This document shows, piece after piece, positions 28,322 through 31,754 of a DNA stretch of 64,000 nt. Below the pieces are notes generated by a model that was not told the origin of the DNA, did no database searches, and saw only the letters and a list, made by a program, of their open reading frames with translations. Where the stretch lies: NCBI GenBank assembly GCA_945860275.1, contig CAMAPN010000003.1:30703-94702 (forward strand), read 5' to 3'. This stretch comes from Bifidobacterium breve. Lineage in GTDB: Bacteria; Actinomycetota; Actinomycetes; Nanopelagicales; Nanopelagicaceae. The position numbers were made by a program, and so were the translations under genes. Positions within the stretch are counted from its first letter, which is position 1, and each line of letters begins with the position of its first letter.

Positions 28322-28750
28322 ATGGAAATCAACAGACGTCATTTCTTATGTGGTTCATTGCTCACCGCTCTGGGCACAAGCACTGCAGTGGTCGAGAGCG
28401 CAGATGCTGCAACTGGAGTAAAAAAACTCTCAGATGGTTCAATCGAAGTGACGGTTGCTTCTGTGAAATCTCTAGCTAAGGTCGGGGGTATTGCCCTGAT
28501 CGGTGATGTCAATGGTGCACCAACTGCACTAGTTCGTACCGGTGCAAAGAAATACATTGCATTGGATCTTCGGTGCACACATGCTGACATCACGGTTAAA
28601 CCAAAAGCTGGTGGTTTCTATTGTGAACCAGCACAAGGTGGACATGGTTCAGCTTTTACGAAAGCGGGAGCCGTGAGTCAATCTCCAGCGGACGCGCCAC
28701 TTAATCGATTGACGGTGACCGTCAAGGGCAAGAAAGTTATTGTTAGTTAA
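28322..28750 (+). CDS. Tat-exported Rieske-like [2Fe-2S] protein with altered cluster motif
   Basis: The start is moved to ATG 28322. The track's TTG adds ten residues without a ribosome site. The 142-aa protein begins MEINRRHFLCG, a twin-arginine (RRxFL) signal followed by a hydrophobic stretch and an ADAA-like cleavage region. The body matches small Rieske proteins, with CTH (C85, H87) as the first ligand box and YCEPAQGGHGSAF as the second (C101, H108). In ordinary Rieske proteins the second box is CxxH; here four extra residues separate Cys and His. Whether a cluster still forms is open. No partner oxidoreductase is adjacent. The stop overlaps the convergent gene by 4 nt. Confidence 0.75.
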   Translation: MEINRRHFLCGSLLTALGTSTAVVESADAATGVKKLSDGSIEVTVASVKSLAKVGGIALIGDVNGAPTALVRTGAKKYIALDLRCTHADITVKPKAGGFYCEPAQGGHGSAFTKAGAVSQSPADAPLNRLTVTVKGKKVIVS

Positions 28751-29205
28751 ATTCCAACAGTGCAAGCAAGGTCGCGCACTGTCAAAGCCATCTCGTACAT
28801 ATCTTTCGATGTTCTAGATAACTTATCGAAAGTATCGAGCAGCGCCGCTTTCGAACGTGCGAGCTCTTCCTTATCGGCCTGAGTTAATGAAGTATCCGCC
28901 TCGGCAGCTGCAAATTGTGCAAGCAAGTCAGCTTTCTCTTGCAATTTTTTAGCGTAAGACTTCTTACCGGCGATGTATTGGTTATTGGAGTCGATACATT
29001 CTTTGATTAGCCACGTTAACTTAGCGCGCTTGACTGTCGGGTTCTTCTGACAGATGTAATCAAAGCCACCAATCTTCGCCTTTTGATTTGTCTTCTTGCA
29101 TGAACCGCCCGCCTTATTCGCTGCTTGCGCAGGGACGCTAACTAACCCAAGGAGAAGGAAAGCTGATGCCGCTATAGCGATAAGACGTTTGGTTATTCTG
29201 CTCAT
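28747..29205 (-). CDS. Secreted protein of unknown function
   Basis: 152 aa with a clear Sec signal peptide (LIAIAASAFLLLGLVSVPAQA, cleavage after AQA). The mature part opens with a small Cys-containing module, GGSCKKTNQ...GFDYICQK, of a kind that recurs in exported proteins of small actinobacteria. A ~80-residue charged helical region follows that could form a coiled coil (KKLQEKADLLAQFAAAEAD). There are four Cys in the mature protein. The ATG follows TAGGCT by six bases. I do not recognise a named family. Confidence 0.78.
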   Translation of the reverse strand: MSRITKRLIAIAASAFLLLGLVSVPAQAANKAGGSCKKTNQKAKIGGFDYICQKNPTVKRAKLTWLIKECIDSNNQYIAGKKSYAKKLQEKADLLAQFAAAEADTSLTQADKEELARSKAALLDTFDKLSRTSKDMYEMALTVRDLACTVGI

Positions 29206-30074: not shown

Positions 30075-31754
30075 TTAAAAAGTTTCGATTATTCGCAGAG
30101 CTGCAGGAGCATGAATTGGCACTACCGGATATCGCGGCGAAGTTGGTTTTAAGCGTCGGTATGGAGCACCTTGCAGCGGCCTGCCATCGACATCACCTTT
30201 ATTGGGCCAGAGTGAAATTGCACGCTCTGCTTGCGCTGTGATTGTCAAAGATGGATTAACGCCAAGGTTTGCAGTTATGGTGGAGCCGTCAATGATGTGC
30301 AAAGTCGGGTAATTCCATATTCGATGGTAGGGATCAATGACACCCTCGGCTTCGCTATTTCCGATTACACAACCACCAACAAAATGTGCAGTGAATGGAG
30401 CATTCACAAGATCACCGATATGCCCTCCGGCAATTCCACCATAACGATTTGCAATTCTCCGGGCAGTTTCATTCGCAGCAGGAATATACGTAGCATTTGG
30501 TCGCTCCGAATCATTCTCGGAAGTTAGTCGCCAACCAAAAATGCCATGTTTGCTTCGAACTTTGATTGCCGAATCCACATCCTGCATGACCAGGGCAATA
30601 ACAGTTCGTTCGCTCCATTTTTTTACATTGAAAATGGTCGCAATCAAACCTGGTTTACGGACCAAAGTTTTGAGCCATTGCTTCCTTCGCTCAGCAACGC
30701 TAGAGCCATCTGTCATAGCTGTTTGAAGTAATCCCATCAGATTACTTCCCTTTCCATAGCGAACCGGCTCTACGTGCGTATTCTCGTCGGGGAAGAATGA
30801 CGAGGTAATTGCTGCTCCTTGGCTGAAGTTAATGTCAGCGCTCGGCATAATTGCGCCCACTAGTGATTCGCTATTGGTGCGAGAGAGCTCGCCAAGTCTT
30901 TCGGAAATTTTCGGTAATTTTCCAGTTGCTTTCATCTTATGGAGAAGTTTTTGAGTGTTGTACGTTCCCGCAGCGAGGATTACTTGCTCGGTAGTAAATA
31001 CTTGCTTCTGTCGAAGCCAGCGATTGCTTTGTTTGGCGATTACTTGCCATCCATCGTTCGTTTTCTCGATTGAGAGCGCTGTTGTTAATGGAAAGACCGT
31101 TGCACCCGCGCCCTCTGCAAGTCCTAAATAGTTCTTAGGCAGCGTGTTCTTGGCATTGTGTCGGCAGCCAGTCATACAACTTCCGCACTGTAAGCAGCTG
31201 ATTCGATCTGGGCCAACGCCACCAAAATATGGATCGCTAATTAACTCACCAGGCTTGTTACCAAAGTGCACACCAAGTGGAGCCATCTTGAAGGTGTGAC
31301 CAACTCCCATCTCGTCAGCCACTTCTTGCATCGCCTTATCCGAATTAGTGAAGTATGGATTTGTCTGAACGCCCAACATCCGTTCGGCTTGGTCATACCA
31401 AGGGGTTAACTCTGATTTCCAATCTGTGATTTCACTCCACTGGGGATCATTGAAGTATTTTTCAGTTGGTCGGTACAAAGTATTTGCATACACAAGCGAA
31501 CCACCACCCACGCCAGCACCTGCAAGAATCAAAACGTTCGGTAGCGCATGAATTCTTTGAATGCCGGTCAACCCTAATTTTGGGAAGAACAGAAAACGCG
31601 AGAGCCGCCATGAAGTCTTCGGAAAATCCTTGTCAGAGAAGCGGCGACCTGCTTCGAGAATTCCTACTCGATATCCTTTTTCACTGAGTCGAAGAGCGCT
31701 AACGCTTCCACCAAAACCTGATCCAATGATTAGGACATCAAAGTGTTTGGTCAT
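30075..31754 (-). CDS. choD: GMC family oxidoreductase, ChoD (cholesterol oxidase-like)
   Basis: A 559-aa flavoprotein collinear with mycobacterial ChoD: FAD-binding IIGSGFGGSVSALRLSEKGYRVG at the N-terminus, LILAGAGVGGGSLVYANTLY, RTNSESLVGA, ITSSFFPDENTHVEPVRYGKGSN, AHFVGGCVIG and VDGSTITANLGVNPSLTI. The true substrate is uncertain, because ChoD homologues are not all cholesterol oxidases. A four-Cys string, CLQCGSCMTGC (C187, C190, C193, C197), is laid out like a ferredoxin motif. The gene overlaps the upstream saccharopine-dehydrogenase-family gene by 4 nt, so the two are translationally coupled. Confidence 0.88.
   Translation of the reverse strand: MTKHFDVLIIGSGFGGSVSALRLSEKGYRVGILEAGRRFSDKDFPKTSWRLSRFLFFPKLGLTGIQRIHALPNVLILAGAGVGGGSLVYANTLYRPTEKYFNDPQWSEITDWKSELTPWYDQAERMLGVQTNPYFTNSDKAMQEVADEMGVGHTFKMAPLGVHFGNKPGELISDPYFGGVGPDRISCLQCGSCMTGCRHNAKNTLPKNYLGLAEGAGATVFPLTTALSIEKTNDGWQVIAKQSNRWLRQKQVFTTEQVILAAGTYNTQKLLHKMKATGKLPKISERLGELSRTNSESLVGAIMPSADINFSQGAAITSSFFPDENTHVEPVRYGKGSNLMGLLQTAMTDGSSVAERRKQWLKTLVRKPGLIATIFNVKKWSERTVIALVMQDVDSAIKVRSKHGIFGWRLTSENDSERPNATYIPAANETARRIANRYGGIAGGHIGDLVNAPFTAHFVGGCVIGNSEAEGVIDPYHRIWNYPTLHIIDGSTITANLGVNPSLTITAQAERAISLWPNKGDVDGRPLQGAPYRRLKPTSPRYPVVPIHAPAALRIIETF

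Follow-up and report, generated by a model that had tools for sequence, protein, structure and literature searches.

A short gene in the window (the whole stretch of 64,000 nucleotides that was analysed) encodes a Rieske-type protein whose second ligand box has the form C-x6-H, where the canonical form is C-x2-H. We consider it likely that the product is a Tat-exported, soluble, extracytoplasmic and disulfide-free Rieske-type [2Fe-2S] electron carrier, in which loop 2 bulges beside the exposed histidine ligand. The host group are abundant freshwater bacteria, the protein is small and predicted to be exported, and its x6 insertion appears as one step of a natural series from x2 to x6 that arose several times.

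Table 1. Features of the Rieske-type gene and its product (positions in the window)
Feature	Position	Strand	Support
Gene for a 142-aa Rieske-type protein, Tat export predicted	28322..28750	+	ORF and translation; present in 5/5 genus genomes
Twin-arginine signal peptide (MEINRRHFLCGSLLTALGTSTAVVESADA, followed by A)	28322..28411	+	Sequence; RR invariant in A2; TatC in genome
Loop 1 ligand box C85-T86-H87 (codons: C85 28574-28576, H87 28580-28582)	28574..28582	+	Invariant in 96/96 relatives
Loop 2 ligand box C101-EPAQGG-H108, C-x6-H; canonical C-x2-H (codons: C101 28622-28624, H108 28643-28645)	28622..28645	+	Both ligands invariant in 96/96; x6 confined to the genus
Rieske tail G-S-x-F ... G-A-V ... 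P-A-x-x-x-L (third, Pro-containing loop)	28646..28711	+	Column conservation

Domain assignment and export signal

The reading frame opens with an ATG at 28322, closes with a stop codon that ends at 28750, and translates into MEINRRHFLCGSLLTALGTSTAVVESADAATGVKK...LDLRCTHADITVKPKAGGFYCEPAQGGHGSAFTKAGAVSQSPADAPL..., with the full ligand pattern C-x-H-x13-C-x6-H. The only cysteine besides C85 and C101 is C10, which lies inside the signal peptide, and therefore no alternative C-x2-H can be drawn. The Pfam Rieske model PF00355 matched residues 61-128 (E=1.6e-5; 25.2 bits, with a curated cut-off of 20.3), and the two cysteines and two histidines of that family, in the order C-x-H...C..H, are supplied by C85, H87, C101 and H108. 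The nearest NCBIfam models were those of the cytochrome b6f Rieske subunits, with scores far under their cut-offs. The tail is well conserved in the alignment of 89 rows: F112 in 85/89, P122 in 87/89, and G116, A123 and L127 in 89/89. The motif as published in a review is Cys-X-His-X15-47-Cys-X2-His (PMC11138216); the first spacing is x13 here and in the C-x2-H relatives alike, and the second departs from the strict C-x2-H, for which reason the protein was filed as a Rieske variant and not as a standard member. Profile match, ligands and relatives together mark it as Rieske-type, and binding of a cluster is predicted from them.

The signal peptide follows the pattern NRRHFLCG...ADA-A, that is, a twin-arginine motif, a hydrophobic stretch and an A-x-A site, with cleavage predicted after A29 or A30. 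Together with the TatC encoded in the same genome, these are the features by which a Tat substrate is recognised from sequence, and such a combination is expected for a protein that takes up its cofactor and folds in the cytoplasm prior to export.

The observation of an earlier, sequence-only reading, and the cautious core of its interpretation, are upheld by these data. The canonical C85-x-H87 and the stretched second box follow from the reading frame and from the lack of a spare cysteine in the mature protein; the alignment with canonical relatives places the four-residue insertion inside the cluster-binding loop, and it matches GGHGSAF and GAV...PADAPL, which had been said to fit the Rieske fold, to the HGSxF and G.(V/L)..GPA..L of those relatives. 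The Tat signal, finally, has its twin arginines in 15/15 sequences of A2 and in 88/89 family rows, the one exception being a protein cut by a contig edge.

AlphaFold2 models, made with an alignment of five sequences only, reached a pLDDT of 61-67.5 overall and below 50 at the cluster loops. Submitted to Foldseek, they retrieved Rieske folds as all of the top matches (best probability 0.98-1.00, with a best E of only 0.0023-0.015), NirD-type 3c0d being among the matches. The subfamily profile matched solved b6f-type Rieske proteins, and the solved relatives aligned to it have C-x2-H.

Rarity and variation of the loop length

A DNA pattern, C-[T/P/N/H]-H-x13-C-x6-H-G, was scanned in 397 genomes of the phylum, and for this pattern, which covers the first spacing x13 only, the window's own gene was the single genuine C-x6-H Rieske. 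Five of the 17 other matches were ordinary C-x2-H Rieske motifs with an extra upstream cysteine; the remaining matches did not resemble Rieske domains where they were translated, and occurred at a rate similar to that of a reversed-pattern control. A profile search in 297 genomes of the class left a sharp gap between the subfamily (E of 1e-33 or better) and other Rieskes (1e-16 or worse), and those of the class's other Rieske proteins that were read have C-x2-H, as do two further Rieske domains that this genome was found to encode. A literature search, with subscription journals outside its coverage and its negative outcome accordingly weak, returned no report of a Rieske loop-2 spacing besides C-x2-H.

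Each of the five genomes of the genus carries the C-x6-H box; one of them is closed and belongs to IMCC26077 (CP015606.1), which was the first acI-C1 isolate (PMC5301498). Loops of the CEPAQGGHGS type, which the sequence-only reading had proposed to look for in other genomes, occur throughout the genus (CEPAQGGHG, CEPSQGGHG, CAPNQGGHG, CEPGAGGHG, CKPQAGGHG): the cysteine, P103, G106, G107 and the histidine are fixed, and three positions (102, 104 and 105) vary. As all five genomes share x6 and pairwise dN/dS, where computable, was 0.046-0.124, the stretched box is neither an artefact nor a product of chance.

We gathered 96 relatives, of which 89 are distinct sequences of the same family and the other 7 belong to a second family within the class. 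The loop-1 cysteine and histidine were counted on the 89 and read directly in the 7, and those of loop 2 were counted on all 96; the four ligands C, H, C and H proved invariant throughout, with many flanking residues varying. For the 89 family members, loop 2 has the following Cys-His spacings: x2 in 64 (CPAHGS), x3 in 3 (CVNGHGA, CALGHQA), x4 in 5 (CSPPGHGS), x5 in 12 (CPGPRGHGS, CPAPPGHGS) and x6 in 5 (CEPAQGGHGS). All seven members of the second family have x2. A glycine directly precedes the loop-2 histidine (column 107) in 25/25 expanded loops, compared with 0/64 x2 loops. The glycine that commonly follows this histidine is replaced in six sequences (L032, L041, L055, L061, L081 and L083; HRAEF, HLANF, HNSQF, HQATF), in which the ligands are kept.

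When the loop columns were left out of the tree, the x6 sequences form a single clade (99/97) with a C-x2-H genus as sister (99/91), and at least six changes in loop length are required. Once the second family had been added, parsimony placed one change 2->6, one 2->5, two 2->3 and two 5->4, which is best understood as at least four independent lengthenings of x2 loops and two shortenings from 5 to 4; because the outgroup was non-monophyletic in this quick tree and the alignment offers only 108 columns, the total count of changes is more trustworthy than single branches.

Two alternatives bear on this variation. One is that the spacings 2 to 6 are near-neutral indels of a surface loop, all serving the same cluster and function, for which it speaks that several lengths coexist in orthologues at the same chromosomal position and that genus g2 holds both x4 and x5. 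The constancy of x6 within the window's genus (g1), where species differ by up to 29% of residues, and the distribution of the glycine before the histidine do not favour this explanation; it is compatible with the exported electron carrier, and we rate it as quite possible, if doubtful on balance. The other is that the protein is a degenerate, metal-free Rieske fold resembling NirD, the loop drifting for want of anything to bind. Loop length does drift in several lineages, and cluster-free Rieske-like folds are known, the NirD type among them (cf. 3c0d above), but four ligands held in 96/96 relatives amid so many variable flanking residues, at a dN/dS of 0.05-0.12, make such degeneration very improbable. 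It was on the conservation of C101 and H108 that the earlier reading had staked its case beforehand, and their retention in 96/96 disfavours the degenerate form; absence of a cluster from the C-x6-H protein is, likewise, unlikely.

Known relatives and genomic neighbourhood

The closest solved relatives by profile are cyanobacterial PetC3 and the cytochrome b6f Rieske proteins (PDB 5cxm, 2zt9 and 3azc; PetC3 5cxm best, E=2e-12). They share the order C-x-H...C..H-G-S/A and the GPA loop, but have C-x2-H and a disulfide cysteine pair, whereas the protein studied here has C-x6-H, is short and soluble, and carries a Tat signal. In the terms that define a bc1 or b6f subunit, the disulfide cysteine pair is absent from the mature protein, the signal is of the cleavable type instead of a transmembrane anchor, and no cytochrome b gene was recognised among the neighbouring ORFs. 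Rieske ferredoxins without the disulfide (CarAc, 1vck; T4moC) are likewise small soluble domains (phmmer to 1vck, E=0.007); they are, however, cytoplasmic C-x2-H proteins with oxygenase partners, while the present protein is predicted to be exported and has no oxygenase nearby. Actinobacterial QcrA has three transmembrane helices, follows a dual Sec/Tat route and depends on Tat for export of its Rieske domain (PMC5449189), the point in which the present protein is predicted to resemble it. A 343-aa ORF in the same genome (L001), likely of the QcrA type, differs in its canonical C-x2-H with disulfide cysteines (CSHMGC...CPCHQ), and most outgroup actinobacterial Rieskes that were read also carry these cysteines (CTHQGC...CPCH), unlike the present protein. 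The bishistidinyl [2Fe-2S] proteins Apd1 and Aim32 have two Cys and two His ligands as well, the histidines in an H-x-G-G-H motif (PMC11138216) that recalls QGGHG, but their thioredoxin-like fold and their ligand order are different, and the resemblance in GGH is probably coincidental.

The gene is divergent from an upstream gene for a GGDEF protein, which, judging from the hydrophobic nature of its N-terminal half, is likely anchored in the membrane; downstream, it converges with a gene for a small secreted protein (window 28747-29205, minus strand). The latter has a CKKTNQKAKIGGFDYIC motif and no Pfam match, and its place next to the Rieske gene is kept in other genera, where the corresponding ORF has a greater length and aligns only in part. 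Both neighbours are conserved in this position, but we do not take this as evidence of a functional link, as the surrounding block of some 20-25 genes is largely conserved and reflects general synteny. A GMC-type flavoprotein (window 30075-31754, minus strand) carries a ferredoxin-like Cys motif, CLQCGSCMTGCRHNAKNT. No redox partner specific to the Rieske-type protein is encoded nearby. The same actinobacterial gene block occurs in a record titled Candidatus Fonsibacter lacus (L094, RFXN01000008.1); the name is an alphaproteobacterial one, and a wrong label or contamination probably accounts for this.

A second paralogue clade of the same family, all x2 in our sample, is located elsewhere. In three loci (L154, L158 and L166; about 8.3-12 kb in each) it directly adjoins a conserved secreted protein of ~205 aa and no recognised family, and nearby are a DUF305 protein (L154, L158), a DUF2231 membrane protein (L154) and a cytochrome b5-domain secreted protein (L166). 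This gene content could represent an extracytoplasmic redox operon, and it points to a redox function of the subfamily outside the cytoplasm, without assigning a partner to the C-x6-H protein. It also bears on a further alternative, namely that the stretched 2Cys-2His site binds a mononuclear metal (Zn, Fe or Cu) in a structural or metal-binding secreted protein. Such ligand sets do bind mononuclear metals, DUF305 proteins are often found near copper-homeostasis genes, and the second clade adjoins a DUF305 protein in two loci. That neighbourhood is, however, the other paralogue's, and the ligand spacing and the columns CTH.., HGS.F and GPA..L are those of a Rieske and common to the C-x2-H orthologues, so that we hold a mononuclear site to be unlikely.

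Proposed role of the stretched loop

In known Rieske structures, two cysteines bind the buried iron and two histidines the exposed one, loop 2 supplying one of each. For the electron carrier that we favour, the inner iron would accordingly be bound by C85 and C101 and the outer iron by H87 and H108. Loop 2 would be lengthened by four residues, x-P-x-x-G-G replacing the two residues between C101 and H108, and this extra flexible Pro/Gly turn would bulge beside the solvent-exposed histidine on the docking face, the cluster being retained. From the glycine before the histidine, it seems that a tight turn of the chain is needed to bring the imidazole back into place, and its occurrence in all expanded loops has the look of a structural answer found repeatedly, by which the histidine ligand is retained. 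The bulge would most likely reshape partner docking and shift the reduction potential without abolishing the cluster, and probably tunes docking or potential; changed cluster properties are possible. A point against the favoured carrier is that the insertion takes the place of residues which, in known structures, normally donate hydrogen bonds to the cluster from their backbone amides. The missing disulfide pair, and a phenylalanine where high-potential Rieskes have tyrosine, suggest a potential lower than that of the bc1 Rieskes.

The Rieske fold is known and no new system is described; what is new is a natural series of loop-2 lengths from x2 to x6 with invariant ligands. Rieske clusters are searched for by means of the C-x2-H box, and therefore stretched forms may be missed or dismissed as degenerate. 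More tentatively, and with somewhat less than even confidence, we propose that in this freshwater actinobacterial clade the loop-2 spacing of a functional Rieske [2Fe-2S] protein, which is described as an invariant C-x2-H, evolved to x3, x4, x5 and x6 through insertions that occurred separately and all arrived at a glycine before the histidine, and that loop-2 length would thereby serve as an evolvable dial on reduction potential or partner docking.
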